Assembly: GCA_017466685.1 (NCBI GenBank)
Contig: JAFTTS010000079.1
Coordinates: forward strand, 1-46,102
DNA length: 46,102 nucleotides
Direction of reading: 5' to 3'
From: Clostridia bacterium
GTDB taxonomy: Bacteria; Bacillota; Clostridia; Oscillospirales; CAG-272
Each line of letters opens with the position of its first letter. Within the stretch, counting starts at the first letter, position 1. Position numbers and translations under genes: made by a program. The notes under the pieces are model-generated. The model saw nothing but the letters and a program-made list of their open reading frames with translations, did not search any database and had not been told where the DNA came from. This document shows, piece after piece, positions 7,532-32,952 of the stretch.

Positions 7532-7570
7532 AGCTTTTTTCTCCATTACCAATATCCGATTCGCAGAAGG

Positions 7571-8596: not shown

Positions 8597-8623
8597 AATT
8601 TTACCACCTTATAAATCATTTCC

Positions 8624-9517
8624 TTATAAAGCATTTAATAATAAATCAAGTTCTTCCTTTATTTGGCCGCGTAAGGAAGACATTTTCTCCTTGTCAACGA
8701 CCTGACAGTGTCCAATGGGAAGTCCTCTCATCTCATATACAAGCTTGTATCCGCTTGGGAACATAGCACTGTCTGCAAGTCTGAGAAGCTTTAATGCCTT
8801 ACGGTTAAGCTCCATTGCTTCGGTGATTTTTCCTTCTCCGAACAGCTTATATATTTTTGCGTTTACCTCAGGAACTATAACCGAAAACGCTGTTACAGAA
8901 CCAACACATCCGGCAACCAAGCTGGGGACAAGACTGTCATCAGTTCCGCCGAAGAGGGCAAAATCGGGTCTGTTTCTTCTGATCAAATCAGATTCATGTG
9001 CAATCTGCTTGATATTTGCAGAGGAATCCTTCATACCAATAATTCTTTTCTCACCAAGAAGCGATTCAAAGCAAGGAATCTCAATCGGATTGGTAAACAT
9101 GGGGATTTTATAAAGCAAAATATCACAAATATCAAGGTCGCTCAAATGCTTGTAATATCTTGCGACATCATTTTGACCCATTGTAAAATAATACGGCGGA
9201 CAAATCATAACAGCGTCGTATCCTAAATCAGCCGCAGCTTTCATGTATGTAACTGTTGTCGAAACATTAGGACTTGATGCACCGGCGAGAAGCTTCTTCT
9301 TGCCCTTAAGATGTTTTGCGGCAAACGCAAGCATTTCTAAATTTTCTTCGGGAGAAAGACTTACAAATTCTCCTGTTGTTCCGCACGCGAAAAAGCCGGT
9401 AATGTCCGATTTGGAAACAAAATCAAGCTCTTTTTCATATGCGTCATAATCAACGTGGCCGTCCGCTGTAAATGGAGTAAGTAATACGCCAAACGCTCCT
9501 TTTAACACAGCAATCAT
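8624..9517 (-). CDS. DHDPS/KDG-aldolase family lyase
   Basis: This is a class I aldolase of 297 residues in the dihydrodipicolinate synthase / N-acetylneuraminate lyase superfamily. The pyruvate-binding GTTGE (47-50 region), the proton-shuttle Tyr136 in LLYKIP and the Schiff-base Lys163 in GMKDSS are all present. Such enzymes split 2-keto-3-deoxy acids into pyruvate and an aldehyde, or run the reverse reaction. With a sugar-acid dehydratase two genes upstream, a 2-keto-3-deoxy-gluconate/galactonate type aldolase is more likely than lysine synthesis. The start at 9517 is chosen because its ATGA overlaps the stop of the preceding M24 gene, a sign of translational coupling; an upstream start at 9559 would lengthen the protein beyond the family norm. 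Confidence 0.9.
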   Translation of the reverse strand: MIAVLKGAFGVLLTPFTADGHVDYDAYEKELDFVSKSDITGFFACGTTGEFVSLSPEENLEMLAFAAKHLKGKKKLLAGASSPNVSTTVTYMKAAADLGYDAVMICPPYYFTMGQNDVARYYKHLSDLDICDILLYKIPMFTNPIEIPCFESLLGEKRIIGMKDSSANIKQIAHESDLIRRNRPDFALFGGTDDSLVPSLVAGCVGSVTAFSVIVPEVNAKIYKLFGEGKITEAMELNRKALKLLRLADSAMFPSGYKLVYEMRGLPIGHCQVVDKEKMSSLRGQIKEELDLLLNAL

Positions 9518-10152
9518 CCTTTCACTATATATTCTGTAATATTTATCGGCAAGCTGCAAAGTCTTTTGAAGCCGGATTCGGTTATCAGATAGTTATTTTC
9601 AAGTCTGATACCGAATTCATTGGGGTAATAGACTGCCGGCTCCAGTGTCACAACCATGCCTTCCTTTAAAATGTCTTCACTTTCCGGAACAAACCGTGGT
9701 TCTATGACAATTTCCTCTGTACCGATTCTATGACCTGCATGGTGGGTAAAAGCAAATTCTGTCCCTATTGCGTTATGCGCGGTGTTCCATATATCTTTCG
9801 CTTCAGAGCCCGGATGAAGCATAGCCTCGCCGGCGGCAAGTGCTCTCACCACCTGTTCATACGCGCTCTTCTGCTTTTCTGATGCCTCTCCCATAAAATA
9901 TACACGTGTAAGGTCAGACCATTGACCGTCCGCACACACCTGCAAATCGAGAAGCACAACATCACCGTACTCAATTGTTCTGTCAGTCGGACCGCCTTCT
10001 ATATCGGCACTTCTTTTGCCCGAAATAAGGTCTCCCTGCCACTGTGGAACAACCGCCGAAATTACATCTGCCAATTCATTTTCTGTCATTCCAATGTGTA
10101 GATTTTCTTTAACAGCACTATGAATCTTATTTTGCAATTCCCACGTTGTCAT
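9514..10152 (-). CDS. M24 (creatinase/aminopeptidase fold) metallohydrolase, catalytic domain only
   Basis: The 212-residue protein is a bare pita-bread domain. All five metal ligands are recognisable: Asp69 (LLDLQV), Asp80 (SDLTRV), His141 (HHAGHRIG), Glu171 (TLEPAVY) and Glu185 (IRLENNY). The N-terminal domain of creatinase and prolidase relatives is missing, and the ORF has a natural start overlapping the previous stop in a TAATG, so it is not a visible truncation. Members cleave peptide or C-N bonds, for example X-Pro dipeptides or creatine. Sitting between an acid-sugar dehydratase and a keto-acid aldolase, it may act on an amide- or amino-acid-linked sugar derivative, which is an inference from context only. 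Confidence 0.88.
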   Translation of the reverse strand: MTTWELQNKIHSAVKENLHIGMTENELADVISAVVPQWQGDLISGKRSADIEGGPTDRTIEYGDVVLLDLQVCADGQWSDLTRVYFMGEASEKQKSAYEQVVRALAAGEAMLHPGSEAKDIWNTAHNAIGTEFAFTHHAGHRIGTEEIVIEPRFVPESEDILKEGMVVTLEPAVYYPNEFGIRLENNYLITESGFKRLCSLPINITEYIVKG

Positions 10153-11273
10153 TATTTAACCTCGTAGCGCTTAAGAACTTCCTCGTCGATTTCAACGCCG
10201 AGACCGGGCTTCTGAGGAATATTAACATAACCCTCGTTATCAATAGAGAAGTGCTTCTTGACAAGGTTCTTGGAAAGGACGGTTTCCTGGCAGCAGTATT
10301 CGAGCCACAAAGCATTGGGAGTTGCGGCAATAACCTGCAGGGAGGCACTCATAAGTATGCCTGTTTTGAATGCATGGGGGATAACAGGGATCTTATGCAG
10401 ATATGCCATATCAATAACCTTTTTAGCTATTGTAATACCACCGCAGCGGCTGATGTCGGGCTGAATAATATCAATGCCGCAGCCTGCGATGAGCTCGTTG
10501 AATTCGAACATCGTACCAACCTCTTCGCCGGCTGAAATACGCATATTAACAGAATTACACAGACGCTTATACGCATCAAGATCATCGGGCTTGAAGGGCT
10601 CCTCTACCCAGTAAACATCCTGCTGCTCAAACTCGTTGCAAAGTCGGATAGCAGTCTTAAGATCACGCCATACCATACCGATATCTATCATAAGCTTAGG
10701 ATCGTCACCCATTGCTTTACGGCACATTTTAACAAGCTCTAAATCCTTTTTATCACTTTGTCCCAAAGCGCCCCAGCCGAACTTAATACCGGTGTAACCC
10801 TGAGGCAGATATGTATCAGCAATTCTCTTGATCTCATCCTCGTTATCGGGCATAAGTACGCTGCAGTATGCGGGGATCTTATCTCTGAACGCACCGCCAA
10901 GCAGCTTATGCACCGGAACGCCCATCTTCTTACCAAGAATATCCCAAATTGCCATATCAATACCGCTCATTGCGTGTATAGCAACACTTCTTCTGCCGTA
11001 GTAGTAGCAAAGCTCATACATCTTGTACCAGATTTTTTCAACGTCAAACGGGTCCTCACCCACTACAACGTCACGAAGTCCCATACATACCATATGAGAA
11101 GTTCCTGCTTCAACAATAGCCTTTACAACATAGGGAGAAGAGTCAACTTCACCTATACCTGTAATTCCTTCATCAGTCATAACCTTGATTACAACTGTGT
11201 CCTGACTTCCGTCACCGATGATACTGATCTCCGGTTGCTTTACAATAATTGCCTGTACGTCTGTGATTTTCAT
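10152..11273 (-). CDS. Enolase-superfamily acid-sugar dehydratase (mandelate racemase subgroup)
   Basis: This is a complete 373-residue member of the mandelate racemase/muconate lactonising family. The expected active site is there: Lys164 (GIKFGWG), the metal ligands Asp197 (MIDIG), Glu224 (WVEEPF) and Glu250 (SAGEE), Asp273 (QPDISRCGG) and the general base His300 (VIPHAF). The His-Asp pair puts it in the mandelate racemase subgroup, which includes galactonate, gluconate, rhamnonate and other acid-sugar dehydratases making 2-keto-3-deoxy acids. The next but one gene encodes the matching aldolase type. It lies 48 nt after the YhcH-type gene and overlaps the M24 start in TAATG. The sugar stereochemistry handled is not predictable here. 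Confidence 0.92.
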   Translation of the reverse strand: MKITDVQAIIVKQPEISIIGDGSQDTVVIKVMTDEGITGIGEVDSSPYVVKAIVEAGTSHMVCMGLRDVVVGEDPFDVEKIWYKMYELCYYYGRRSVAIHAMSGIDMAIWDILGKKMGVPVHKLLGGAFRDKIPAYCSVLMPDNEDEIKRIADTYLPQGYTGIKFGWGALGQSDKKDLELVKMCRKAMGDDPKLMIDIGMVWRDLKTAIRLCNEFEQQDVYWVEEPFKPDDLDAYKRLCNSVNMRISAGEEVGTMFEFNELIAGCGIDIIQPDISRCGGITIAKKVIDMAYLHKIPVIPHAFKTGILMSASLQVIAATPNALWLEYCCQETVLSKNLVKKHFSIDNEGYVNIPQKPGLGVEIDEEVLKRYEVK

Positions 11274-11321
11274 AATACTCCACCTTTCATTACTCTCTTT
11301 CGAGATAGTTGTTTTTTTATA

Positions 11322-11774
11322 TCAAACCCTTACTTTGACTATGATTTTCTTAATAGCCGAAGGGATGGTATACATTATTGCCCCTTTGTGTATATCGTTT
11401 GGAAAGAATATGGCAAATTTTCCCGGCGCCATTACTATTTTATCGCAAGCCTCACCGGTTGAAAAAAGCTCAAGATCCTTATTTTCATCATATATAGCTT
11501 CAGATTTAACAGAAGATATATCTGTGATCTTCATAAATTCATTGCCTGAAACCATATACTGAACATCTATGTATTTTCTATGACCTTCACATATACATTC
11601 TTCTTCTTTTTTCGTAACATAAGACTGGACAACAGCATAAATTTCATCGCCCTCAATTTCGTGTCTGCCTTCCGCCAAATCCGCAGGGGCTTTTTTCAAA
11701 AAATCAAACGCCTTTTTGAATTTATCGTTTACTCCGTAATATTTTTCACAGTTAACAATATTATCTACTATCAT
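11322..11774 (-). CDS. YhcH/YjgK/YiaL (DUF386) family protein
   Basis: The 150-residue single-domain cupin-like protein carries the family hallmarks GRHEIEGDEIYAVVQSY, EGHRKYIDVQYM and FAIFFPNDIHKG. The family often accompanies sialic acid, ulosonate and unusual-sugar catabolic genes (YhcH in the nan region, YiaL, EbgC) and has been proposed to act as an anomerase or epimerase on free acid sugars. It sits 14 nt downstream of the GntR gene, and its presence strengthens the reading of the operon as a sugar-acid pathway. The biochemical role is known only loosely for the family. Confidence 0.93.
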   Translation of the reverse strand: MIVDNIVNCEKYYGVNDKFKKAFDFLKKAPADLAEGRHEIEGDEIYAVVQSYVTKKEEECICEGHRKYIDVQYMVSGNEFMKITDISSVKSEAIYDENKDLELFSTGEACDKIVMAPGKFAIFFPNDIHKGAIMYTIPSAIKKIIVKVRV

Positions 11775-11788
11775 AGAAACATCTCCGC

Positions 11789-12415
11789 TTAATCTTCTAT
11801 CAAAGATAATTCTTTTGCCTCATCAATATGAGATCTCAGTACATCGATCACCGCTTCATCCCTGTCAAGCAGCATTTTTATAATAAGCATATGCCTTGTA
11901 TGAAAAGCATCCTTAACATTTTGAGAGTGACTGAAATTCAGTGAAAAGAGTTCTCTTGTCACGGGCGCAAAGGTTTTCCATGCCTGCAACAGTGCTTTGT
12001 TATTGCTCATTGCCACAAGCGTTTCGTGAAACTTGGCATCGCAATCGAGGAAGTCGTCATTCTCCTGTGCTTCTTCGATCACTTGAATGAGTTTTGATAT
12101 ATCCAGCGTACCGCTCGTTAATGCCTGCCTGAGTGCACTGCATTCAATATAGGTACGAAATTCATACAAATCATTTATGTCTTTTGTAGTTAAACTGCAT
12201 ATACGCTTTGTACCGTTTGGCATAACACGTATCAGACCTTCCTGTTCAAGAACAGCAAGTGCACTTCTTAACGCCGCACGGCTGCAAAGATACCTCTCGG
12301 CAAACTGCAGTTCTGTTACATGAGTATCGTTTTCGAGCTTTTTCATGATAATATCCCGCCTGAGCTCGTTCAAGGGCGTTTGTACTGTACTGCTTCTTTT
12401 TAAAGCATCCTGCAT
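11789..12415 (-). CDS. GntR family regulator, FCD (FadR-type) domain
   Basis: The 208-residue regulator has an N-terminal winged helix (about residues 12-75; CSRAALRSALAVLEQEGLIRVMPNG). An all-helical FCD ligand domain (80-205) follows, with the metal/ligand residues of the family (DLYEFRTYIE, DAKFHETLV, FHTRHML, LRSHIDEA). FCD regulators usually sense organic or sugar acids and repress the adjacent catabolic genes. It is the first gene of the seven-gene operon, and its promoter overlaps a duplicated palindrome, so autorepression is likely. An AAGGTGG site lies upstream of the ATG at 12415. Confidence 0.92.
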   Translation of the reverse strand: MQDALKRSSTVQTPLNELRRDIIMKKLENDTHVTELQFAERYLCSRAALRSALAVLEQEGLIRVMPNGTKRICSLTTKDINDLYEFRTYIECSALRQALTSGTLDISKLIQVIEEAQENDDFLDCDAKFHETLVAMSNNKALLQAWKTFAPVTRELFSLNFSHSQNVKDAFHTRHMLIIKMLLDRDEAVIDVLRSHIDEAKELSLIED

Positions 12416-15416: not shown

Positions 15417-18400
15417 TTATTCCTCATTCTTCTTTTTACGAAGAACAACGAACAGCACCGAACCGCAGGCAGCCACCACGCCACCGCATCCGACAATGAG
15501 CCAAATGAGCCATGACGGCATTCCATCGCGATCTGCATCCTGTCCGTCCGTCGGATTCGTGTTGCTTTGATTATCAGCTGCGGTGGTATCTTCCCCACCG
15601 GGAATTTCGGATTTCACGAAAATATATCCGCATTCATCACAAATATCGTCCCCGTCTTCATCCGTGTGATTATCCTCCGGGCAATTCTTCCAGACCGGCT
15701 CAAGCTCCACATTTCCTGTCAGCTTATCACCCTTTTTAACCGGCTCACCGGTCGCCTTGTCCACCCATCCTTCAAAAATATAACCTTCTTCTTTGGGCGC
15801 AAGTACCGGAAGTGTCGGGACCGCATTGCCGGAGCCTGTTGTAAGCAGCTCTTTAACCGTATGTGATGTGTCGGGAATCGGTTCTTTTCCGGGAGGAGTT
15901 CCTTGCGGATTCTCATTTGTTTCGTCATCGGGCTTATCGATTGAAGCTTCACCACCTCCGGAATAATCCGGCATCGTTATAACAAACTTATCCTCCGGCA
16001 CCTTCAGCATGGGAATCGATTCGCTGACTGTATAGCCGCAGATCTTGCACACACGCTGCTTTTCACCGTTAAACGTATATCCTGCCTTCAACACGGTTTT
16101 CCACTCACCGAGCTTATGCGGAGCTTTTTCCGTTGCTTCATGACAGAAGCTGCATTCCTTCCAGTGCTCGCCCTCGGTGTACTTGTGCTCATAGTTATGC
16201 TTCACCGCGGCAGTCTCTGCATCCTTCCATGAATGACCGCAGGAACAGGTATGCGTTGTATATCCGCCTGACAGACAGCTCGGCTCGGTCACGGTTGACT
16301 TATATTCATGCGTATGTCCGTCGGTCAGCTTTGGAATCTTTTCCTCTTTTGAGAATCCGCATTCTGTACAGCTAAGCTTCATCACGCCGTCCGCATCCTT
16401 CGTTGCTTGTTTTGTAACCTCAGCCTCACCAAAGGTGTGCGCCTGCACGTTCAGCTTAACGTCACAGCCCTCGCCACAGAGCGTCCAATGCTCATTTTCG
16501 TTATATTCTATTTTTGCAGAATCACCAACACAGTGTTCTCCGGCAGTGCAATAATGCGTCTTCCATTCGTCACTTTCGGGACAGATACCGTGATCACATC
16601 CGTAGCCTTGTGCAATTTCCGCACAACAATCGGTGCATAATTCACAGTCGGGACAGATTTCGATACAGCTCTCGCATTTTCCGCACTCCGAACAGAATCC
16701 GACACAGTCGGAACAATATTCACCGCAGTCACCGCAGATTTCGGCACAGTCACCGCAGTAATAACAGTCCTGACACATACTGTCTGCACAGTCTATGCAA
16801 ATACCGCAATCCGGACAAAACTCATCTATACAACCGGAGCATTTACCGCAGTCCTCACATACACTTTCAGCACAGTCCCGACAAACGATACCGCACTCCT
16901 CGCAGACCTCCGTACAGTCACCGCACTGGTAACACTCCTCGCAAAACAGATCGCCGGCACATTCACGGCAGAGATCGCAGGAAACGCAGAATTCATCACT
17001 GCAGGATGAACAGACCTCGCCGCAATCGGGACAAAGATCGGCGCAGTTTTCACAGCCCTCACCGCACGGACAAACATTGCCGCAATCGGAGCAAAGTCCG
17101 CAGGTCGTGCAGAAGCTGTCCGAGCCGGCGCAGTCAATACATTTACCGCATTCCGTACACAACTCCCCGTCGGAGCAGTTAGAGCATTTTTCACAGCACT
17201 CCATACAGACAACAGCACAGTTGGTACATCCGCCGCCGCATGAGCAGACCATTTCCACGCAGGTGATACATAGTGAACAATCAAAACAGAAGTTGCCGTC
17301 ACCCACACAGTCGGCACAGAATCCACAGTCGATACACAGCTCATCCGCGGCACAATTTTCGCATTTTTCGTTACACTCGGGACAGATTCGTTCCACACAT
17401 TCCGAACAGCCACCGCCGCAGATGCAGACAAAGTCCGAGCACATCTTGCAGGTTTCGCAGTTATCGCAGAAGTTACCGTCTCCGCCAACGCAGTCCTTGC
17501 AGACATCGCATCCGCCGCATATTTCCTCCTCTGCGCAGTTGGTACACTTTTCAGCACACTCAGGGCATACCGTCGCACACTCCACGCATCCGTTACCGCA
17601 TATACATATCTCCACGCAGTTTTTGCAAAGTCCGCATTCAGCACAGTAATTGCCCTCTCCGCCAACACAGTCGAAGCAGACCTCGCAGTCCTGGCAAAGC
17701 TGATCGTCTGCACAAGCCTCGCACTTTTCACCGCATTCGGAACAGATTATAGCACAGTTCGAGCATCCGCCGCCGCAAACGCAGACCATATCGACACAGT
17801 TATAGCAAAGACCGCACTCGACGCAGAAATTGCTCTCACCGCCAACACAGTCAATACAGGTACCGCACTCTGTACAAAGCTGATCGTCTGCACAAGCCTC
17901 GCATTTTTCGGCACATTCCGTACAGATCACTGCACATTCCACGCATCCGTTACCGCAAATGCATATCTCCACGCAGTTTTTGCAAACTCCGCACTCGGCA
18001 CAGTAATTTCCCTCACCGCCGACACAATCGAAGCAAACGCCGCAATCGCTGCAGATCTGGTCATCGGCACAGTTCATGCATTTATCGTTACATTCGGGAC
18101 ATAGCTCCGTACATTCCGCACATCCGCTTGAACATCCGCCGCATATGGCATCCACACAGTCAATGCATTGGTCGCACTCATAGCAATAGTTGCCATCGCC
18201 GCCAACGCAGTCAAAGCAGACACCACACTCGCCGCAAATACCGCCGTCCGCGCAGTTTTCGCATTTTTCGCCGCAATCCTCGCAGACAAGCACACATTGC
18301 GAACAGCCGCCACCGCAATAACAGATAGCATCAACACAGTTTTCACACAGCTGGCAGGTCGTGCAGAAGCTGCCGTCACCTCCAATGCAGTCATAACAGG

Positions 18401-19088
18401 TACTGCAATACAAGCAAAGCAGTTCCGGCTCGCAGTTGGTGCATTTTTCGTAGCAATCATCGCATCCGAGAGCACATCTTGAGCATCCGTCGCCGCAGTA
18501 ACAGATCCACTCCGCACAGTTTATGCAGATATCACAGTATGAGCAGTAAGCTTCGTTGCCTGCACAATCGGCACACTTACCGCAATCATCGCAGATCCAC
18601 TCATCACATTCGGTACAGTGTTCACCGCACTCGGAACAGATCGTGCCACCCTGCTCATAGCATCCACGGCATTTGTCATCACATTCGCAGTGATCCTCCA
18701 GACAGTTGCCGCAGTCGTCGCACATTTCGTGGTCGTCATCGCAGGCACCGCAATATCCGCAGTGGTGCTCCTCGTAGCAATCGCCGTCCGCACCCTCTCC
18801 GCAATGATCACCGTTCTCGCATTTCCAGTCATCATACCGCCAGCCGCCGCAGTAGTCACATTCAACGCCGTCCTCATAATCGGCACTGACGGGCACGGCA
18901 AACAGTGATAACACAAATCCGAGCGTATTGTCGATAATGTCGAGTACGCTTGTATGTTCTTCGTGTTCTTCATGTACATGGCCTGATTCCAAATGTATGT
19001 GCTCATATCCGCCTACTGTCGAAAATACACTGAACAGCATCAAAAAACAGAGCAGTAAACTCAAGCCTTTTTTAAACTCCGATTTCAT
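15417..19088 (-). CDS. Giant cysteine-repeat surface protein, membrane anchored
   Basis: The 1223-residue protein carries about 220 cysteines by hand count (18%). Order: signal peptide (1-25); a His/Glu-rich stretch (28-45, six His); a Cys-rich lead-in (77-164); eleven tandem units (165-809) of 54-61 residues, ten with exactly 16 Cys and the seventh after the first with one extra; a Cys/His module region (about 810-1010) with CxxC pairs and HxW motifs; a Pro/Gly-rich linker; an InlB-B-like repeat (GYIFEGWVDKATGEPVKKGD); a DEDGDDICDECG motif; one membrane helix (SWLIWLIVGCGGVVAACG) and a KKKNEE tail. Typical unit spacing is C2C2C2C7C2C2C2C4C1C3C2C3C2C3C2C. It is strongly acidic. It should sit outside the cell, attached to the membrane. 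Metal clusters, iron-sulphur or disulfide binding are all possible. It is the last gene of a nine-gene run, and I recognise no named family for the repeats. Confidence 0.9.
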   Translation of the reverse strand: MKSEFKKGLSLLLCFLMLFSVFSTVGGYEHIHLESGHVHEEHEEHTSVLDIIDNTLGFVLSLFAVPVSADYEDGVECDYCGGWRYDDWKCENGDHCGEGADGDCYEEHHCGYCGACDDDHEMCDDCGNCLEDHCECDDKCRGCYEQGGTICSECGEHCTECDEWICDDCGKCADCAGNEAYCSYCDICINCAEWICYCGDGCSRCALGCDDCYEKCTNCEPELLCLYCSTCYDCIGGDGSFCTTCQLCENCVDAICYCGGGCSQCVLVCEDCGEKCENCADGGICGECGVCFDCVGGDGNYCYECDQCIDCVDAICGGCSSGCAECTELCPECNDKCMNCADDQICSDCGVCFDCVGGEGNYCAECGVCKNCVEICICGNGCVECAVICTECAEKCEACADDQLCTECGTCIDCVGGESNFCVECGLCYNCVDMVCVCGGGCSNCAIICSECGEKCEACADDQLCQDCEVCFDCVGGEGNYCAECGLCKNCVEICICGNGCVECATVCPECAEKCTNCAEEEICGGCDVCKDCVGGDGNFCDNCETCKMCSDFVCICGGGCSECVERICPECNEKCENCAADELCIDCGFCADCVGDGNFCFDCSLCITCVEMVCSCGGGCTNCAVVCMECCEKCSNCSDGELCTECGKCIDCAGSDSFCTTCGLCSDCGNVCPCGEGCENCADLCPDCGEVCSSCSDEFCVSCDLCRECAGDLFCEECYQCGDCTEVCEECGIVCRDCAESVCEDCGKCSGCIDEFCPDCGICIDCADSMCQDCYYCGDCAEICGDCGEYCSDCVGFCSECGKCESCIEICPDCELCTDCCAEIAQGYGCDHGICPESDEWKTHYCTAGEHCVGDSAKIEYNENEHWTLCGEGCDVKLNVQAHTFGEAEVTKQATKDADGVMKLSCTECGFSKEEKIPKLTDGHTHEYKSTVTEPSCLSGGYTTHTCSCGHSWKDAETAAVKHNYEHKYTEGEHWKECSFCHEATEKAPHKLGEWKTVLKAGYTFNGEKQRVCKICGYTVSESIPMLKVPEDKFVITMPDYSGGGEASIDKPDDETNENPQGTPPGKEPIPDTSHTVKELLTTGSGNAVPTLPVLAPKEEGYIFEGWVDKATGEPVKKGDKLTGNVELEPVWKNCPEDNHTDEDGDDICDECGYIFVKSEIPGGEDTTAADNQSNTNPTDGQDADRDGMPSWLIWLIVGCGGVVAACGSVLFVVLRKKKNEE
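16662..18596 (-). repeat. Eleven tandem ~180-bp coding repeats (16-Cys units)
   Basis: Units begin with (L/I/F)C..C..C..C and follow one another without linkers at residues 165, 223, 283, 344, 403, 463, 522, 583, 642, 699 and 756. Length drops from about 60 to 54 residues towards the C-terminus, where the pattern becomes nearly pure CxxC. The units at residues 344 and 463 are almost identical in DNA (around 17.95 and 17.6 kb), which points to recent duplication or gene conversion. Cysteine number stays at 16 (one unit has 17) while the residues between change, so the cysteines are under selection. Confidence 0.88.
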
Positions 19089-19107
19089 TTAAACCCTTCT
19101 TTCGCTA

Positions 19108-19548
19108 TTATTTATCAGAATCACACATCACCGGCACAAGGCTCTCGATGATAAGTCTCACATCCGTGTCCTCGAGCGAAATCTCATGCTCCCTGTTTTT
19201 CATGAGGATCATAACCTGAAAAACACAGCCATCCCACTTTGCATCCAGCATCGTATACGGGTATCCGAGACTTGTGCAGGTGTAGCCGTTCCAGGTGTAA
19301 GCACCGAGGGTGATGGGCTCTATATCTGCAATATTGTCATAGAAGCTTTTGGGAGAAAGGTAATAATCCTCTTTGCCGAAGAAACATACCGTAATGCCGA
19401 CATGAGTGAAAATATCCGTCTCTTTTTCTATGCCTTTATAAATATGTACCTTCTTCGGCGTAATCTTTCCGTCACTGTCAGTACCGCAGAACGCCATCCA
19501 GCCGTCAGGCACGCTCACACGGAAGCTTCCACTCTCAAAAGCACTCAT
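19108..19548 (-). CDS. Small cytosolic protein of unknown function
   Basis: The 146-residue protein has no signal peptide or membrane helix. It begins FRVSVPDGWMAFCGTDSDGK and has a predicted alpha/beta character, resembling small stand-alone proteins that accompany DUF6935-type genes in Clostridia, as far as I remember them. It contains KEDYYLSPKSFYDN, echoing the GREDYLKSP of the next gene, so the two may be distantly related. It lies 15 nt after that gene and 19 nt before the cysteine-repeat gene. No catalytic motif is visible. Its conserved place in the operon suggests a helper role. Confidence 0.8.
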   Translation of the reverse strand: MSAFESGSFRVSVPDGWMAFCGTDSDGKITPKKVHIYKGIEKETDIFTHVGITVCFFGKEDYYLSPKSFYDNIADIEPITLGAYTWNGYTCTSLGYPYTMLDAKWDGCVFQVMILMKNREHEISLEDTDVRLIIESLVPVMCDSDK

Positions 19549-19563
19549 ACAGCGTCTCCCTAA

Positions 19564-20001
19564 TCATTCTGCCTTCACGAATCGGATGGTCATGAAGAAA
19601 ATAAAACCGTCACCGTCCGAGCCCTGTGTCCATCCATCCTCGCTGAGTTCAGTGGTGTACCAAAGCGCACCGTCACGTTCCTCCCACGATTCGAAACCGC
19701 TCATCATCATATCGTCGCGCAGAGTTATTTCACCGGAGGCAACAGCCGCATCGACCTCATCCTCACAAACTCCATCCGGAAGCGGCATCAGCATATACAT
19801 CTTGCCGTCCTCGCAGATTTCGATCTGCATACCGATCATGCTTTTTCTCTCTCTCTGCTCATCGGCGACCGCTTCTTCGTCCGTTTCATCGATATACGGC
19901 ATCGGGGACTTCAGATAATCCTCTCTGCCCAAATAGACCATTTCATCGGAATCCGTTATCGTACCGATCGAGTGAAATACCCACTTTCCAACATAACTCA
20001 T
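19564..20001 (-). CDS. Lipocalin-like small protein
   Basis: The protein has 145 residues. The N-terminus MSYVGKWVFHSIGTI fits the GxW opening of lipocalin-like barrels, followed by acidic loops and a C-terminal strand (GFIFFMTIRFVKAE). The start at 20001 is fixed by a strong AAGGAGG site eight bases before; the frame runs open to 20133 but that extension is unsupported. It has no signal peptide, so it is cytosolic. It is preceded by a 128-nt gap with a UUCG-type hairpin, the widest gap in the operon. The function is unknown; ligand binding is a guess from the fold hint. Confidence 0.78.
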   Translation of the reverse strand: MSYVGKWVFHSIGTITDSDEMVYLGREDYLKSPMPYIDETDEEAVADEQRERKSMIGMQIEICEDGKMYMLMPLPDGVCEDEVDAAVASGEITLRDDMMMSGFESWEERDGALWYTTELSEDGWTQGSDGDGFIFFMTIRFVKAE

Positions 20002-20100
20002 TGCATATACCTCCTTAATAATGATTTCTGTTTGCCAAATTATTTTCTTTCTCAAAATCCTCCTCGCATACGGATAAACGGAGAAGGACTTTGAGAAGAC

Positions 20101-20118
20101 GGGGAACCGAAGCTCCCC
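20101..20118 (-). terminator. Intra-operon hairpin with TTCG loop
   Basis: GGGGAAC-CGAA-GCTCCCC on the plus strand reads on the minus strand as a 7-bp stem closed by TTCG, an extra-stable tetraloop. No clear T-run follows. It lies between the lipoprotein gene and the lipocalin-like gene and may attenuate transcription or stabilise the mRNA end. Confidence 0.45.
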
Positions 20119-20129
20119 ACCTCGAAATT

Positions 20130-20606
20130 TCATTTGTGACAGGTTTCACTCTCTGCGAGCATTGCATCCAAAGCGCACACAAATTCGTGATATCCTTTCG
20201 GAAAATTCGCGGACCCGTCTGCAGAAACAGTCTCACCGCCGTTCACCGTCGCGTCAAAGCGGAACATGATCCCGTCCTGCACATTTTTGGGATGTTCGCC
20301 ATGAAATCCGTCCCAGCGAAGGATGCTGCAGGTGTTCATAAGTTTGATCATCGTTTGTGCACTGCAGGGGACGCTTTTTTCAAGCTCAAGCAAATCTTCG
20401 CCGTCACGGTATATTTCCCGATAACGCCGCAGCTCCGTGTAACTCCCCTCGCCTTCGAATTTGTAAACATAACCACCGCGCATTCCACGCAGGGTAAGCG
20501 TCATATTCTCCACCGAGGTGACCGTTTTTTGAGCTTCTTTTCCGCATCCGAAAAGTCCCATCAGCATTGTAAATACCATAGCACTTATCAGTATCCGGAT
20601 TTTCAT
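20130..20606 (-). CDS. Small lipoprotein of unknown function
   Basis: The 158-residue protein has a lipoprotein signal (MKIRILISAMVFTMLMGLFGC, Cys21). The mature domain has the block ILRWDGFHGEHPKNVQDG and FPKGYHEFVCALDAML, a pattern shared in outline with the anchored protein at 21217-21771 (a strand-rich domain with an ASGES or GSANF loop). They are probably distant paralogues. The ATG at 20606 overlaps the previous stop in ATGA, so translation is coupled; a GTG at 20612 is less likely. It should be tethered to the outer face of the membrane, near the two large surface proteins. Confidence 0.82.
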   Translation of the reverse strand: MKIRILISAMVFTMLMGLFGCGKEAQKTVTSVENMTLTLRGMRGGYVYKFEGEGSYTELRRYREIYRDGEDLLELEKSVPCSAQTMIKLMNTCSILRWDGFHGEHPKNVQDGIMFRFDATVNGGETVSADGSANFPKGYHEFVCALDAMLAESETCHK

Positions 20607-21187
20607 GCCCACGGATCGTCCGATTTAGCCTTTCGGATGCCGACCAGCAGGAATTGCTCCCACAAGAACCATTTTCCGTCACTGCCGCGTTTACGAAGCA
20701 CGATCTCACGAGGATTATCCGCACCGCCGCTTCTGATGAACAGCTTTTTATAGCCCTCATCTGCATTGGCATCGGAATATGCGCCCGATTCGACAGTTAT
20801 AGTGAAAGGGGTATCGGGAGTGTAATCATTTCCGGGAACAGCACCCTTGAAATACGAGAAAGGCACATGATGTCCGTCACGGAAACGCTCGTTTAAGAAC
20901 GAAATCTGAGCATTGTTAAGCGGTCTTGGACCGAGCAGGAAATTGAGCATTTCAGCACCGATCGCCTTGTCTGCCGCATAGACACAGAGTGCACAAACAG
21001 TCAGTGCGGCTGTCTTGAAGGGGGTATCCATTGATGCTTCCGGGATGGCCTGCAGCTCGGCAAGGCTTTCGGGAAGTGCGTCAAAGGTGAAGGTCTCCCT
21101 CTGGGTTGTCATCGCATTAACTGCGCCTGCAGCAGTATTTTTCACTGCATCGTTTACGGTTTTCTTGAGCTTATCAAAAATTGACAT
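20603..21187 (-). CDS. DUF6935-like protein
   Basis: The 194-residue cytosolic protein begins MSIFDKLKKTVNDAVKN, an amphipathic helix. A conserved core follows (FDALPESLAELQAIPEA, FKTAALTVCALCVYA, FLNERFRDGHHVPFSYFKGA, FLWEQFLLVGIRKAKSDDPW). I recall this pattern as the DUF6935 family of Clostridia; this is from memory and unverified. No enzyme motif is seen. Family members tend to lie in clusters of small proteins like those here. Its stop overlaps the lipoprotein start by four bases. Confidence 0.85.
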   Translation of the reverse strand: MSIFDKLKKTVNDAVKNTAAGAVNAMTTQRETFTFDALPESLAELQAIPEASMDTPFKTAALTVCALCVYAADKAIGAEMLNFLLGPRPLNNAQISFLNERFRDGHHVPFSYFKGAVPGNDYTPDTPFTITVESGAYSDANADEGYKKLFIRSGGADNPREIVLRKRGSDGKWFLWEQFLLVGIRKAKSDDPWA

Positions 21188-21216
21188 ATTGTTATCCTCC
21201 TGTAATTATATATGGT

Positions 21217-21771
21217 TTATTGCTTACCCTGTGACATAAAAAGTTTGTTGAGCTCACCCATTGATTCCATTGTCATAAAGCAGTCCTGATTATTGTGAGC
21301 ATAGATGGATTCGCCCGAGGCATATCGGATGTCGATCAGTGCACCGTACATATCCGGCAGTCCGCTGACCGTATGGACGTAACCGTTATGGGATGCCAAA
21401 TCATGCCTCGAAACGATTTCCTGCAATGATTCAAGAAAAGCTGCATCCGCTTCAAACTCGAAGCTTTCCGCCGGAGCACCGCGTCCGTACCGCTTGTAGG
21501 TGCAGTGAACCGTTTCGCCTTTATACAGAGCATCTAACTTGTATATCCTGTTTTCAAGCTCTTCAGGCTCTGCAGCGGCAAGCAGTGAAAATTCACAGTG
21601 AAATTCCGTGATTTCCGCAGACTCGATAACCTTCGGCGAATCGTCACCGCTTTGGTGCTTAACCACGCCACCGTCCACATCATCGGTTGATTTTGTGTTC
21701 ATTTTCTTGTATCCCACAAGAAGAAGTCCGGCGAGCAGTACGACACCCGCACCGCATAAAAGCCACTTCAT
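21217..21771 (-). CDS. Membrane-anchored small protein of unknown function
   Basis: The protein has about 184 residues. It starts with one membrane helix (LLCGAGVVLLAGLLLVGY) and a short charged linker. An extracytoplasmic domain follows, with FHCEFSLLAAAEPEELENR, GYVHTVSGLPDMYGALIDI and YASGESIYAHNNQDCF. The domain looks distantly related to the lipoprotein at 20130-20606. The ATG at 21771 is preferred to the GTG at 21780, though spacing favours neither strongly. It lies 21 nt after the large surface protein gene and 29 nt before the DUF6935-like gene. No function can be assigned. Confidence 0.8.
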   Translation of the reverse strand: MKWLLCGAGVVLLAGLLLVGYKKMNTKSTDDVDGGVVKHQSGDDSPKVIESAEITEFHCEFSLLAAAEPEELENRIYKLDALYKGETVHCTYKRYGRGAPAESFEFEADAAFLESLQEIVSRHDLASHNGYVHTVSGLPDMYGALIDIRYASGESIYAHNNQDCFMTMESMGELNKLFMSQGKQ

Positions 21772-21801
21772 GTTTTTCACATCCCAACTTCTTTCGTTTT
21801 C

Positions 21802-24681
21802 TTATTTTTTACCTTTTTTCTTCACCAGCACCACCGCCGTAAGGGCAACGCAGACAACAGCCACAGCCACGGCAGCTATAATGATCCACATAAACGCATT
21901 ATCATCATCCTGCTTCTCTGCAGAGTCGGAGGTGTCGCCGTTTTGTGATGAATCAGGAGAATTTCCCGTATCATCGGAGGTGTCACCCGTGGTAGGTTCA
22001 TCTGTTTCAGATTCCGCCTGAGTGGGCTCCTCTGTAATAGCATCTCCACGCTTATAGCCGCAGACGGTACATTTATCCTTCTCTGAGAAATCATGTCCTT
22101 CGTTCGTTCCGTCGATGATAGCGTCACAACCCTTGACTGTACATTCCTTCCAGTGAACATCCGCATCGTATTTCCATTTCGATTCCTTATGACCGGTGGC
22201 AGGTATAACGAGACTGTCTTTATCCGTGATTTCTTCGCCATCGGTGTTATTTGTGAAAATACTGTCGCAGGACTGGCAGTAGTAATACGATTTCATTCCC
22301 GGCTCTGTGCAGGTTGCCTTAACAGCGTCCATACGAACAAGCTTATGCTTATGTGTAGTCGCCGGAGCTATTGTATAGCCGCAAACGGTGCAATTTTGTG
22401 ATGCGGTTTCGGTTGCAGCTGCACCGGGAGTGTGCTTTACGACGTCATCGTGCTCACCGCAGACACTACACTTGTGTGCGTGTCCCTTTGCATCGGTATA
22501 ATCCCACTGTGCACTCCACTTGTGGTCGCCGACTTTTCCATATTCTGTGCCGCAGACAGAACACTTCGCTTTATTCTTGCAGTCAGCCGTGCCGCCGCTG
22601 TGAGCTACAACTGTATCATGTTCACCGCATACGGTGCATTTGTATGCGTGTCCGTTTTTATCGGTGTATTCGGGAGTTTTGCTCCACTGATGCTGGATCA
22701 CCTCGCCGTATTCGGCTTTACATTCGGAACACTTGGCAGTCTCACCGCATTTGGAAATACCGCCGCTGTGAGGTACGATCGTATCGTTGATTCCGCATTC
22801 CTTACATTTATGTGCGTGACCGGTTTCATCCTTATAGTCCCATGCCGTACCGAATTTGTGCTCGGCAAACTCACCGTACCATTCACCGCAGTTTTTGCAG
22901 ATCGCACGGTTGTCACAGGTTGCCTTGCCGCCGGTGTGCTCAAGCTTTTCAATTTTCCCCCATGCATTGATGTCGGTAATTTCCTTTGTACATTTGGAAT
23001 CCTCAAAGTTTTTACCGCACTCAGGGCAGAAATAATAGGACTTTTTGCCTTCTTCCTTGCAGGTCGCCTTAACTTCATCAATCTTCTTGGGAGAGCATTT
23101 GTGTTCTTCGGTCTTGGGGAAGGTGTAATAGAGAGTAACCTCCTCGTTGTTTCTGGAGCTTACCTCGGCACTCTTGCCGTTAACTGTGCCGGCTATGTTA
23201 ACCGAACCGGATTTATACTGAAATTCGTAGCCGTCGTTTGTCCAGATCATGATCTGCACAGTATAAACCTTGCCTGCCTCAAATTTATCCGATGTGGACA
23301 TAGTTTTCTTGTCCGTTTCGTTGTACCAGGAAATGCCGTTTTTATTGGTTTTATCGTTATAATCAGCGGCACCGTAGTTTACATTGCTGTACGATGCCTC
23401 GTAATCGGGAGAATTTCCGGTTACAGGTGCGTCAATATCGGTAACACCAACTTTGCTGATGGCGATATTTTCTGTCTCGGGGAATACATATGTAACAACT
23501 ATTTCATTTTTATTGCCGGAAACAGTCGCAGCCTTTCCGTTGACGGTGGCAGTAAGATCAATACTTCCGTTTGTCTTGGTTGCAAACTGATAACCGCTTG
23601 CAGGCTTCAGGCGAATATCCACCTGATATTCAGTCCTCGGAGCGAATGCCTGACCGGATGCAGCCAGATACGAGCCGCCATTGACCGACCAACACATACC
23701 GTTTTTGTAGTAAGCGTCACTGCGGCCTGTGCTCACATATCCGCTCGATGCCAAGGTGGCGGAATACGTAGGTGCACTGCCGGCAATCGGAGCTTTAACA
23801 TCCTTGATATCGATATTGTAAATTACAGGAGCACCGGTGGCGGTAAATTCGGCCATCATAGTTATCTTGCTTACCGTACCGTCAGCCGTAAATCCGAGTG
23901 CCTTCACGCCGTTGACGGTGCCGGACATATAATTGTATGCCCAGAAGCTGTAAGTGCTTTCGGCTGTGATCTCAATGAATGCATAATATTTCTGACCTGA
24001 CTCAAACTTATCCGAGGATGTCATATCCGTGTTTGAGCCTGACTTGTACCAACGGATTTTGCTGACATAATAACCGCAGCCCGTCGGCGTATCCGCATTA
24101 AAATCAGGTTTTTCACCCGAAGCCGGTTCGGTGACATTAAGTACAGCCACGTCCTTGACGGAGGTCTGCGCTTCGGTTGCCGGGAAGGTATAGGATACTG
24201 TCAGGTATTTCTGATATGTGGTATCATGCTCATATTTGGACGCATCTATCGAAAAGAGAGAATAATCCTGTGCATTATTTTGTGCTGCCGTATTACCGTT
24301 TATAGTAACCGACGGAACCGCCGATACTCTTCCCTCACCTGTTTTGAAATAATGCTCGGGAGTTGCAACCTCAAGAACCACAAAAACCGTATATTTTGTT
24401 CCTGCGGCCGCAGTTGACGAGGTGCTTGTTATGTAGTCGTCACGGTACTGTGCTTGCCAGGCAACCTTGATGATATTATATTTCTGCGAGTTTTCTTCAG
24501 CAGTGAAGTCGAATTTTTCACCTGCCTTCGGAGCGTCTATTCCGATAATGGTGACGTTGGTGATCTCATAGGTTGTGAACATCTCCTTGGCTGCAAATAC
24601 AGACGTCGACAAGCAACCAATCAGTAAAACGACAACTACCGCCATAGCAAGTATTCGTTTAAAATGTGTAATCTTTTTCAT
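21802..24681 (-). CDS. Large surface protein: four beta domains, Cys/His modules, membrane anchor
   Basis: The 959-residue protein has a signal peptide (1-31, ending VFAA) and four ~110-130-residue beta-sandwich repeats. Each repeat opens with a V..I.A P..G. motif (IDAPKAG, VTEPASG, VKAPIAG, IDAPVTG) and closes with a TVNG...V.YTFP block. Then comes a long run of Cys/His modules (CxxCG pairs with H..W and GHAHKC motifs). An acidic Thr/Ser-rich spacer (EPTQAESETDEPTTGDTS), one membrane helix (FMWIIIAAVAVAVVCVAL) and a KKKGKK tail end it. The anchor layout copies that of the cysteine-repeat protein, so both probably stand on the same membrane face. The Cys/His modules look metal-binding but also occur widely in clostridial surface proteins of unknown role. 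Adhesion or metal capture are possibilities. Confidence 0.88.
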   Translation of the reverse strand: MKKITHFKRILAMAVVVVLLIGCLSTSVFAAKEMFTTYEITNVTIIGIDAPKAGEKFDFTAEENSQKYNIIKVAWQAQYRDDYITSTSSTAAAGTKYTVFVVLEVATPEHYFKTGEGRVSAVPSVTINGNTAAQNNAQDYSLFSIDASKYEHDTTYQKYLTVSYTFPATEAQTSVKDVAVLNVTEPASGEKPDFNADTPTGCGYYVSKIRWYKSGSNTDMTSSDKFESGQKYYAFIEITAESTYSFWAYNYMSGTVNGVKALGFTADGTVSKITMMAEFTATGAPVIYNIDIKDVKAPIAGSAPTYSATLASSGYVSTGRSDAYYKNGMCWSVNGGSYLAASGQAFAPRTEYQVDIRLKPASGYQFATKTNGSIDLTATVNGKAATVSGNKNEIVVTYVFPETENIAISKVGVTDIDAPVTGNSPDYEASYSNVNYGAADYNDKTNKNGISWYNETDKKTMSTSDKFEAGKVYTVQIMIWTNDGYEFQYKSGSVNIAGTVNGKSAEVSSRNNEEVTLYYTFPKTEEHKCSPKKIDEVKATCKEEGKKSYYFCPECGKNFEDSKCTKEITDINAWGKIEKLEHTGGKATCDNRAICKNCGEWYGEFAEHKFGTAWDYKDETGHAHKCKECGINDTIVPHSGGISKCGETAKCSECKAEYGEVIQHQWSKTPEYTDKNGHAYKCTVCGEHDTVVAHSGGTADCKNKAKCSVCGTEYGKVGDHKWSAQWDYTDAKGHAHKCSVCGEHDDVVKHTPGAAATETASQNCTVCGYTIAPATTHKHKLVRMDAVKATCTEPGMKSYYYCQSCDSIFTNNTDGEEITDKDSLVIPATGHKESKWKYDADVHWKECTVKGCDAIIDGTNEGHDFSEKDKCTVCGYKRGDAITEEPTQAESETDEPTTGDTSDDTGNSPDSSQNGDTSDSAEKQDDDNAFMWIIIAAVAVAVVCVALTAVVLVKKKGKK

Positions 24682-24709
24682 TGTTTTATTCTCCTTGATA
24701 TAAAGTCGT

Positions 24710-24991
24710 TTATTTGCCCGGGATAAGAGCTACTTTTCGTCCGCAGTGTGGGCAATACTGCGTATCCGAGGTCAAAGGAATGTCACATGACGGACAGCGA
24801 GAATGCATCATTTTATATTCGTCAAAGAGTGTTTTGCGCGTCAACAGCCTTTTACACGCAGGACACAAAAGTGACGTCCTTTTTGCAATCTGACCGCATC
24901 TCGGACATATCTTGATTTTTTTCATGGCAACAGGTCCCATGCCGTAAGTCCCGAGCCGCATAAATTTTTCGCTTTTGTTATCACGTATCAT
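24710..24991 (-). CDS. Small double zinc-ribbon protein
   Basis: This 93-residue protein has four CxxC pairs: CPRCG, CPAC, CPSC and CPHCG, forming two zinc ribbons joined by a basic segment. It is cytosolic, with no signal peptide. The ATG at 24991 has GGAGGA seven bases before; a TTG lies one codon upstream. Its 5' end overlaps the previous gene by 11 nt. It may bind nucleic acid or protein, or act as a metal-handling helper for the Cys-rich surface proteins encoded downstream; the last is inference. Confidence 0.82.
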   Translation of the reverse strand: MIRDNKSEKFMRLGTYGMGPVAMKKIKICPRCGQIAKRTSLLCPACKRLLTRKTLFDEYKMMHSRCPSCDIPLTSDTQYCPHCGRKVALIPGK

Positions 24992-25361
24992 CAAATCTTC
25001 CTCCGTAGATCAGATGCTCTCCGCATTTCGGACATACGCAGTCGGAGCTGGACACCTTTGCACCGCAGAATTTACAGTATTCTGGCGTGTTTTCCCAAGG
25101 CGCACAGGCAACACACTCAAGCGCATCCGCATTGTACATCGCATCTATCACCCACCTGCCGCACTTGTGACACAAATTGAAATGTGACTTCCCCTCAGTT
25201 TCCCACGCAAGTCGAAGCTCCGCATCGGGCATATCCGCGTGATACGGCTTGGTGGTGCAAAGGAGTGCTCCGGTAAGCTCACAGTAGAAGCGGTACCGGT
25301 TTCCGCCCGAATCGGAAATGATTTTATAAGCCGCTGTTTTTCCTTTTGTCATACAAAACAT
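24981..25361 (-). CDS. Zinc-ribbon protein, first gene of the surface operon
   Basis: The 126-residue protein has an N-terminal strand-rich half (AYKIISDSGGNRYRFYCELT) followed by CHKCG, CVAC, CKFCG and CPKCG pairs, forming two zinc-ribbon-like knuckles. It is cytosolic. An AAAGGAGG site is present; the start is either the ATG at 25361 (only three bases away) or at 25352 (twelve away). It overlaps the next gene. As leader of the run it may be a regulator or assembly factor. No DNA-binding helix motif is evident. Confidence 0.82.
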   Translation of the reverse strand: MFCMTKGKTAAYKIISDSGGNRYRFYCELTGALLCTTKPYHADMPDAELRLAWETEGKSHFNLCHKCGRWVIDAMYNADALECVACAPWENTPEYCKFCGAKVSSSDCVCPKCGEHLIYGGRFDDT

Positions 25362-25696: not shown

Positions 25697-27037
25697 ATGA
25701 AAAAAACACTTGCACTTCTTTTAGCGGCAGTATTACTGCTGTCCCTTGCCTTGACAGGACTTTTCGGCTGTTCGGAAAAAACACTGCTCGATCCCGCAAG
25801 CCCGGTCACACTGACGATCTGGCACGTTTACGGTGAGCAGGCTGATGCTCCCATGAATCTGCTTATCGAGGAGTTCAACGAAACCGTCGGACACGAGAAG
25901 GGCATCCGTGTTCAGGTCACCAACGTAACGAGCACATCCAAAATTCTGGCTCAGCTTCTCGACGCACAGTCAGGTAAGCCCGGCACTCCGGAGCTGCCCG
26001 ATCTCTTCTCCTGCCACACGCAGAATGCACCGTCACTCGGTATCGACAATCTGCTTGACTTTGGCGAGTGGTTTACCGAAAAGGAGCTGGAGACCTATGT
26101 GCCCGAATTCATCGAAAGCGGTATGATCGACGAAAAGCTGATCGTTTTTCCCGTTTCGAAATCCACATACGCACTCTTTATGAACGGCTCACAGTTTACA
26201 CGCTTCTCCGAGGACACCGGTGTGAGCCTTGATGACCTCTCAACCTGGGACGGCTTCTTTACAGCAGCTGAGAAATATTACAAATGGTCAGGCGGACGTC
26301 CGTTCTGCGCCTTTGACTATCTCGTAAGACACATGGAGCTTGATATTCTGTCAGGATGCGGTAAGCTCGAATATACCGAAAGCGGTTGGTATGATGAAAG
26401 CGATCCTGCAGTCAAGGAATCCTTTTCCATGTTCGCAAAATCCCTTGTACAAGGACATATCGCCGTATCCGACCTCTATGCAAATACGCAGGTCATGACC
26501 GGCGAGGTGCTTTCCGGTATCGGCTCATCTGCGGCTGTCGGTTATTATAACGACACCGTCACCTATCCCGATAACACATCCGAACCGATGGAGCTGCAGG
26601 TGCTTCCGCTTCCGAAATCGGGCGGTGAAAACGAATATATGCCGCAGACGGGTGTTGGCTTGTGCGCCTTCAGAACGACCGACCAAAAAGCAGAGGCAGC
26701 ATACGAATTTGTAAAATGGTTCACGGAAAGTGAGCGGAATCTTGATTTTGTCGTCAGCACAGGTTATATGCCGGTGACAAACGGTGCATTTGAGCAGATC
26801 GAAGCGTACACCTTTACCGATGACGGCTATGAAAGTCTCTACACCGCCATCAAAACAATGTACGACGAAACGATTCCCGTTGTGCGTCCGGATCTTGAGG
26901 GCTTTTATGATAAAACAAACGCTTTGTATGCAGGACTTCGTGATATGCAGCAAGCTCTCATAGAACGTGCCGAAAACGGCGAGAGTATTGATACACTGAC
27001 CGAGGAGATTTGGGAATTTTTCTGCGGTATTGATTGA
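25697..27037 (+). CDS. Extracellular solute-binding lipoprotein (ABC sugar-binding type)
   Basis: The 446-residue protein has a lipoprotein signal (lipid Cys25 in LTGLFGC). Family-1 solute-binding features follow: VTLTIWHVYG at the mature start, FNETVGHEKGIRVQV, a hinge with PDLFSC, and the C-terminal QTGVGLCAFRTTDQKAEAAYEFVKWF block typical of sugar-binding proteins. A CGGAGGAA site is at a good distance. There are no permease genes; the next gene, 13 nt on, is a membrane-bound LuxR-type regulator. This pairing suggests that the binding protein reports ligand to the regulator instead of, or as well as, to a transporter. The ligand is unknown. Confidence 0.9.
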   Translation: MKKTLALLLAAVLLLSLALTGLFGCSEKTLLDPASPVTLTIWHVYGEQADAPMNLLIEEFNETVGHEKGIRVQVTNVTSTSKILAQLLDAQSGKPGTPELPDLFSCHTQNAPSLGIDNLLDFGEWFTEKELETYVPEFIESGMIDEKLIVFPVSKSTYALFMNGSQFTRFSEDTGVSLDDLSTWDGFFTAAEKYYKWSGGRPFCAFDYLVRHMELDILSGCGKLEYTESGWYDESDPAVKESFSMFAKSLVQGHIAVSDLYANTQVMTGEVLSGIGSSAAVGYYNDTVTYPDNTSEPMELQVLPLPKSGGENEYMPQTGVGLCAFRTTDQKAEAAYEFVKWFTESERNLDFVVSTGYMPVTNGAFEQIEAYTFTDDGYESLYTAIKTMYDETIPVVRPDLEGFYDKTNALYAGLRDMQQALIERAENGESIDTLTEEIWEFFCGID

Positions 27038-27050
27038 AAGAGGTGGGAAT

Positions 27051-31392: not shown

Positions 31393-31402
31393 AACTCTCT
31401 CC

Positions 31403-32650: not shown

Positions 32651-32655
32651 TATTA

Positions 32656-32684
32656 ATTATAATCCTTTCAAGAATAATTGTCAA
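32656..32684 (-). promoter_or_regulatory. Promoter of rhaA, close to the start codon
   Basis: The minus strand reads TTGACA (32679-32684), a 17-bp spacer and TATAAT (32656-32661), a full consensus. The -10 box ends five bases before the ATG, so the transcript would start at or near the first codon. The GAAAGG that could serve as a ribosome site lies within the spacer. Either the mRNA is leaderless or a second start lies upstream. Confidence 0.6.
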
Positions 32685-32740
32685 ATATTCAGATAAATTT
32701 CTTGTTAATATTATTATATCAATATTGAAAACAATAAAAA

Positions 32741-32774: not shown

Positions 32775-32810
32775 AAGATTCGCCGAAAAAGCCTTGAAAA
32801 AGCATTTTTA

Positions 32811-32948: not shown

Positions 32949-32952
32949 TCGT

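Follow-up and report, generated by a model that had tools for sequence, protein, structure and literature searches.

What would hold together a predicted exported protein in which more than one residue in four of a long stretch is cysteine? This question arises at a single gene in a 46,102-nucleotide stretch of a Clostridia bacterium of the order Oscillospirales (assembly GCA_017466685.1, contig JAFTTS010000079.1, positions 1 to 46,102; called the window here). The gene, an open reading frame (ORF) at 15417-19088 on the minus strand, translates into 1223 residues with 222 Cys, of which 201 lie in residues 77-822 as a repeated array. Our preferred reading, which we put forward tentatively, is that this predicted surface-anchored array folds by taking up about 50 metal ions, probably zinc, and forms a rigid, protease-resistant rod on what is probably a gut bacterium. 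The parts of the protein (lengths in amino acids, aa) are as follows.

15417..19088, minus strand: array surface protein, 1223 aa, 222 Cys (open frame; family search)
18882..19088, minus strand: predicted secretion signal and His-rich stretch, residues 1-69 (hydrophobic segments by reading)
18606..18860, minus strand: N-cap with irregular Cys spacing, residues 77-161, kept in relatives (sequence and relatives)
16989..18593, minus strand: nine regular 16-Cys units, residues 166-700 (gap count, AlphaFold2)
16623..16988, minus strand: tail of shorter CxxCxxCxxC clusters, residues 701-822 (sequence, alignments)
16029..16622, minus strand: His/Cys modules (CxxC...H), residues 823-1020, kept in relatives
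15708..15836, minus strand: weak Listeria-Bacteroides repeat-like stretch, residues 1085-1127 (PF09479, E=0.0011)
15441..15515, minus strand: predicted membrane anchor, a hydrophobic helix at residues 1192-1216 with RKKKNEE after it (by reading)

The array consists of regular 16-cysteine units

Nine units, beginning at residues 166, 225, 285, 346, 405, 465, 524, 585 and 644, match at least 13 of the 15 gaps of the Cys template C2C2C2C7C2C2C2C4C1C3C2C3C2C3C2C, and the best count of such units in 2000 shuffles of residues 75-822 was 0. The same residues hold 116 CxxC motifs, compared with 53 ± 5 in 500 shuffles, and are composed of 27% Cys, 21% Asp/Glu and 3% Lys/Arg, with aromatic residues scarce. 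After residue 45 the protein is 18.8% Cys, against a median of 1.0% for 28 exported-like ORFs, a crude sample from its own genome that includes the array protein itself. The genome also holds a further Cys-rich exported-like ORF (L040:7799-8506), which encodes 235 aa and has 15 Cys beyond residue 45.

The initial annotation, made from the letters of the window, had described eleven equal units. The repeat array is real and nine of its units are regular, but both ends (the cap at 77-161 and the tail at 701-822) are irregular, so that eleven equal units is an approximation; the single 17-Cys unit it reported is there, and is the unit at residue 585, which carries an extra CC. Its ORF, strand and coordinates, the C-terminal hydrophobic helix, the acidity and the His-rich N-terminus are all as it described them, although the last is not a constant of the family, being absent from P0012 and P0008, short-N-terminus relatives in which a signal-peptide-like N-terminus stops just ahead of a matching YEDG. 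The tail cysteines rank among the most strictly kept columns in the family alignments. Modules like those of residues 823-1020 are seen in a 959-aa neighbour (by reading) and in contig C50, where a 903-aa ORF (L002, L003, L004, L006) matches the array protein's C-terminal His/Cys module in tandem. The PF09479 (List_Bact) match scores 19.5 bits, under its cut-off of 27.

Cysteines and their inner spacing are conserved

To describe conservation we used 476 distinct near-complete units drawn from the listed proteins and loci. Twelve of the 16 Cys positions hold nothing but Cys or a gap in 472 units or more, the exceptions being positions 2, 8, 9 and 10. Cys10 is the only cysteine lost in 57 units, where it is replaced by Asp (25), Asn (12), Gly (10), Glu (9) or Ser (1); Cys2 and Cys9 are the only ones absent in a further 29. 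L007, L013, L018 and P0018 each have one unit with His in place of Cys8, and His stands at Cys7 and Cys8 in two Cys-rich pieces of L020; elsewhere His is nearly absent from the array (0.1% in 53 canonical units, none in the consensus unit). Among 33 distinct arrays (counting fragments), 20 have an odd Cys total and 13 an even one.

The spacing within clusters is kept as closely as the cysteines. In 23 close relatives, which supply 132 distinct units, gaps 2, 6 and 10 are identical in every unit and gap 14 in 129, while the between-cluster gaps 4, 8, 12 and 16 vary; all four inner-cluster gaps are likewise identical in the 34 distinct units found in 97 SLH or CW_binding_2 relatives (units for both comparisons were picked by their other gaps). 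The earlier statement that Cys stays fixed while other residues drift thus extends to the relatives.

The array is joined to four kinds of anchor

Of 2215 candidates in a protein search with the array, 211 passed E≤1e-5, and a profile search gave 295 of 3337; domain and length data come from the best 120 of each. In named genomes the family occupies 15 loci in 14 metagenome-assembled genomes (MAGs), from bins titled Clostridia, Oscillospiraceae, Eubacteriaceae or Bacillota. Half of these MAG titles (7/14) give the gut of a ruminant as sample source, from sheep, roe deer, goat or water buffalo, six of the seven being colon or rectum, and the other seven state no source. The family is rare and scattered, occurring in 5 of 146 genomes of relatives and 4 of 394 genomes of the order, the window's own genome counted in each; among the viral contigs searched no relative was confirmed, and none was found in the plasmids searched.

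Within the family the array is found with four anchors: a C-terminal hydrophobic helix, SLH, CW_binding_2 and dockerin. The array protein and its closest relatives (P0001-P0021, P0025 and P0026) have no Pfam domain listed, and in the six of them read whole (P0001, P0002, P0003, P0010, P0012 and P0017) a hydrophobic helix with a basic tail closes the chain. The remaining 97 rows of the best 120 of 211 carry SLH (PF00395; 95 rows) or CW_binding_2 (PF04122; two rows), an assignment confirmed for three of the 97. A type I dockerin closes the array protein of L019. In L020 a dockerin-bearing Cys-rich protein adjoins a second Cys-array protein that is cut by the locus end, so that Cys arrays would here meet a cellulosome-type scaffold, while the very distant relative in L021 (2252 residues, 26% identity) carries List_Bact and SLH. 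The membrane helix named in the initial annotation therefore holds for the window but is one anchor type of four. Because the array occurs with four anchors, and is kept while they change, it is likely to be the selected and working part, and its place, judged from the established roles of these anchors, would be the cell surface, outside the cell.

Two further observations concern the relatives. The tandem Cys-rich proteins at L020:8447-12140 include one with the type I dockerin and beta-sandwich-like spacers. Many SLH-type relatives among P0027-P0154 have similar scores but differ in length (about 1065-1307 residues), which suggests gain and loss of repeats among strains.

Metal-thiolate folding is favoured over disulfides

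Two ways of locking such an array, by metal-thiolate sites or by disulfides, had been proposed side by side, and on the sequence evidence we favour the first. We infer that metal would be the cross-link, with about four sites per 16-Cys unit, that zinc, given general thiolate chemistry, is the likeliest metal, and that the rod would serve as armour or spacer. In the proposed course of events, the predicted Sec-type signal would export the chain unfolded and reduced; successive CxxC pairs would take up metal outside the cell; the aromatic-poor chain would stiffen into a row of small metal-held loops, its 201 Cys giving about 50 four-Cys sites; and the anchor would hold the rod at the envelope. 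The role as a rod is suggested by the closest functional analogue, the protist CXXC-rich surface proteins, which excerpts from PMC6341118 describe as resistant to proteases. According to the same excerpts, a variant-specific surface protein (VSP) turned trypsin-sensitive on treatment with chelators or reducing agents, and addition of metal undid this.

The strongest rival, which we nonetheless consider unlikely, is that the cysteines pair with one another extracellularly, either unaided or with the help of low-molecular-weight oxidants or of an oxidase that has escaped recognition, and give a stiff, protease-proof shape that contains no metal. Exported Cys-rich repeats elsewhere are often disulfide-bonded, and the portions of PMC12453122 consulted give examples of clostridial proteins with disulfide bonds, one of them CdeC, a Cys-rich protein of spores, and mention DsbA-like enzymes that can act without a partner. 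Against it stands, first, the failure to find known machinery. No match to DsbA (PF01323) or VKOR (PF07884) turned up in any of the 17 carrier genomes searched, nor to DsbB (PF02600) in any of the 16 searched for it, while 8, 3 and 6 of 14 control genomes, respectively, gave matches; two of the 17 entries, G084 and G149, have identical coordinates and are therefore one genome counted twice, and AhpC/TSA-type oxidases were not among the families searched for. The gut sources in the carrier MAG titles argue in the same direction, the colon and rectum being anoxic.

The pattern of cysteine loss also bears on the choice. Disulfide pairing would tend to lose cysteines in pairs and keep totals even, so that the single losses and the odd totals speak against it. 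Asp, Glu and His are common metal ligands, and swaps of a single Cys to Asp, Asn, Glu or His are of the kind that metal sites can show; together with the lack of matches to DsbA, VKOR and DsbB and the odd Cys totals, this indirectly favours metal. We also count for metal that gaps within clusters hardly vary while those between clusters do.

The predicted structure is consistent with an ordered repeat. AlphaFold2 modelled the last four regular units, with short helices only, at a predicted local distance difference test score (pLDDT) of 89.7 and a predicted template modelling score (pTM) of 0.68. All ten PDB rows returned by Foldseek for this four-unit model are zinc-binding PHD, FYVE or RING-type domains, as classed by title and general knowledge, with non-significant E-values of 4.7-9.9.

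Several points weigh against metal-thiolate folding. Two of the five four-unit models scored just 65.6 and 56.4, a 760-residue model had a pTM of 0.34 with its five models ranging from 79 to 38, the models contain no metal, and none of the structural matches was significant; the zinc-domain rows may moreover have been driven by the CxxC letters and not by the fold. Gly, which is no ligand, accounts for 10 of the 57 sole losses of Cys10. Residues 75-822 carry a net charge of -134, a strong acidity in which they differ from metallothioneins, which are Lys-rich. The carrier genomes are incomplete drafts, so that an absent gene may be a gap, and the window's own genome (89% complete) has no match to a CcdA-type domain. 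In the VSPs, chelators and reducing agents alike abolish resistance, and disulfides may therefore contribute there (PMC6341118, in part). Finally, some anaerobes have DsbA-like enzymes that make disulfides without a regenerating partner, as parts of PMC12453122 report.

Comparison with known cysteine-rich proteins

Pfam, NCBIfam and PDB sequence searches gave no significant match covering the array, only weak rows below threshold, in agreement with the view that no named family contains this unit; as far as the libraries and papers searched extend, a bacterial family with such an array appears not to have been described. Functionally, the closest analogue would be the surface coat that Giardia and other protists carry, which is rich in CXXC and resists proteases. 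Giardia VSPs (PF03302) and the CXXC proteins of Entamoeba, Tetrahymena and Paramecium share with the array protein a CXXC-dominated exported array of variable length, and the VSPs also a single membrane helix and a gut setting, as far as excerpts from PMC6341118 describe them. Of three marks of VSP membership the array protein has one, its 116 CxxC motifs with a single C-terminal helix (by reading), and lacks two. First, PF03302 gave no match to the whole protein at E≤1 or to the nine units at E≤10, although HMMER filters may hide weak matches. Second, the VSP tail reads CRGKA. The C-terminal RKKKNEE of the array protein differs from this short cytoplasmic tail, which is described as highly conserved in the VSPs (PMC6341118, in part). 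Unlike the VSPs, the array protein is bacterial and has a strict 16-Cys unit with fixed spacing, and its relatives carry SLH, CW_binding_2 or dockerin.

The zinc-binding LIM, PHD, FYVE and RING domains have closely spaced CxxC pairs as the array does, and the LIM junction [CH]xxCxxCxxC resembles its clusters. For this group of domains Foldseek gave weak rows, none of them significant. A LIM domain is built of two zinc sites, CX2CX16-23HX2CX2CX2CX16-21CX2(C/H/D), whereas the gaps between clusters in the regular units are 3-7 residues, the consensus contains no His and no Pfam match was obtained; the array protein also differs from all four domain types in being extracellular by prediction. Metallothioneins are similarly Cys-rich with few aromatic residues, but the array protein is long, anchored, predicted to be exported and strongly acidic, with strict repeats, and no curated metallothionein profile matched it (Pfam E≤1; NCBIfam). 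CdeC of Clostridioides difficile spores, which PMC12453122 in the portions consulted describes as disulfide-bonded, is Cys-rich and clostridial and is set beside the array by description alone.

Gene neighbourhood and the remaining alternatives

The array gene is the last of nine close-packed minus-strand genes (15417 to 25361), of which the other eight are:

19108..19548, minus strand: 146-aa protein, with relatives in L011 and L016 (Pfam scan: nothing at E≤1e-3)
19564..20133, minus strand: 189-aa protein, with relatives in L011 and L016 (Pfam scan: nothing at E≤1e-3)
20130..20612, minus strand: 160-aa protein, lipoprotein-like by reading; 6 of 15 loci have relatives (sequence)
20603..21187, minus strand: DUF6935 protein; relatives in 6 of 15 loci (PF22043, E=6.1e-56)
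21217..21780, minus strand: 187-aa protein; relatives in 7 of 15 loci (locus comparison)
21802..24681, minus strand: 959-aa predicted surface protein, the second in the run; 7 of 15 loci have relatives (sequence, locus comparison)
24710..24991, minus strand: small zinc-ribbon-like protein, 93 aa (frame read; counterpart by reading)
24981..25361, minus strand: 126-aa protein with 12 Cys; relatives in L010, L016 and L017 (locus comparison)

The 959-aa protein has 33 Cys in CxxC/His modules and a C-terminal hydrophobic helix; by reading it contains repeated domains of ~100 residues and is predicted to be an anchored surface protein. The counterpart of the 93-aa protein in L010 (3612-3923) is a double zinc ribbon (PF12773, Pfam on L010). 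All ten close-type loci with upstream sequence (L007-L013, L016-L018) have at least one relative of the window's neighbours or members of a recurring set; L014 and L015 start within the array gene. The set, seen beside the array gene at L008:720-4155, consists of three proteins: one with SPFH/Band-7 and zinc ribbons, a membrane protein with a zinc ribbon, and one with a TPM domain. The context of the array gene is thus, as read from these sequences, one of predicted envelope and zinc-ribbon proteins. L019 and L021 have none of the window's neighbour genes, and L020 only a solute-binding and LuxR pair. In the window this pair lies at 25697-28757; by reading, it comprises a lipoprotein of the solute-binding kind and a LuxR-type regulator that has membrane segments, and it is possibly a surface sensor pair. 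It is kept upstream in L010, L016, L017 and the distant L020 and is absent in L009 and L011, the latter having only a weak LuxR-like match downstream.

After the disulfide rod, the alternatives rank as a metal store, a thiol shield and an iron electron path. As a surface buffer or store, the array would bind metal reversibly, trapping zinc, copper or cadmium or feeding uptake, with no structural role. Its 201 Cys would make about 50 four-Cys sets per molecule, related loci hold zinc-ribbon-like proteins within the same gene cluster, and DUF326 (PF03860), which we take to be a Cys-rich family related to copper storage proteins, weakly matches two of the nine single units (best E 0.0069), the whole protein giving no match at E≤1. 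DUF326 resembles the array in being Cys-rich; the array differs in that its predicted model has only short helices. We regard a store as improbable, however, since the near-invariant inner spacing and the ordered predicted fold exceed the needs of a loose store, and among the scanned neighbours, many of which lack a Pfam match, no metal transporter or efflux family was named.

A shield of reduced surface thiols that consume oxygen, hypochlorite and other oxidants reaching the anaerobe would suit the high Cys content after residue 45 and the DsbD/CcdA-type membrane domain in 12 of the 17 carrier entries (one genome counted twice), but a sacrificial thiol store has no need of near-invariant spacing and the window's own genome lacks the CcdA-type match, which makes it distinctly improbable.

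Electron passage, which the initial annotation had ventured, would here mean that Fe(Cys)4 sites of the rubredoxin type, or iron-sulphur sites, form extracellularly where gut contents are anoxic and rich in sulfide, and hand electrons along the rod. This we consider very improbable: the CxxCxxC clusters and the acidic, nearly His-free array do recall 2[4Fe-4S] ferredoxins, but the template lacks the ferredoxin CxxCxxCxxxCP spacing and has 16 Cys per unit, no iron-sulphur family matched in Pfam or NCBIfam (nor any curated 4Fe-4S ferredoxin profile, with the whole protein or single units), the signal is Sec-type by reading with no twin-arginine motif, and none of the scanned neighbours, many without a Pfam match, was assigned to a cytochrome, flavoprotein or hydrogenase family. 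The boldest form of this idea, a new class of extracellular metalloprotein whose ~50 such sites would make an electron wire from the anaerobe's surface, set in membrane, S-layer, cell wall or dockerin scaffold, is a long shot.

The rest of the window is metabolic in appearance. Genes at 5882-12415 encode amidohydrolase, alcohol dehydrogenase, DHDPS-family, M24, MR/MLE and YhcH proteins and an FCD regulator, a set suggestive of the breakdown of sugar acids or sialic acid, and those at 30322-45930 a class II aldolase, a rhamnose isomerase, a GH127 protein and a 1982-aa CBM_4_9 protein, which looks like plant polysaccharide use.

Implications

Cys tends to be avoided in the exported proteins of obligate anaerobes, although some of these still make a few disulfide-bonded ones, as parts of PMC12453122 state. 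The array family sets ~200 Cys in its fuller members against this tendency, in carrier genomes where known disulfide machinery was not found, and so makes the folding of Cys-rich proteins outside an anaerobe directly testable. A confidently predicted repeat with no significant structural match also offers a starting point for structural studies and for the design of metal-linked materials. If the array is held by metal, the family would work like the CXXC-rich surface coats of gut protists, as a bacterial counterpart arrived at independently, and would represent a new way of building a digestion-resistant rod.

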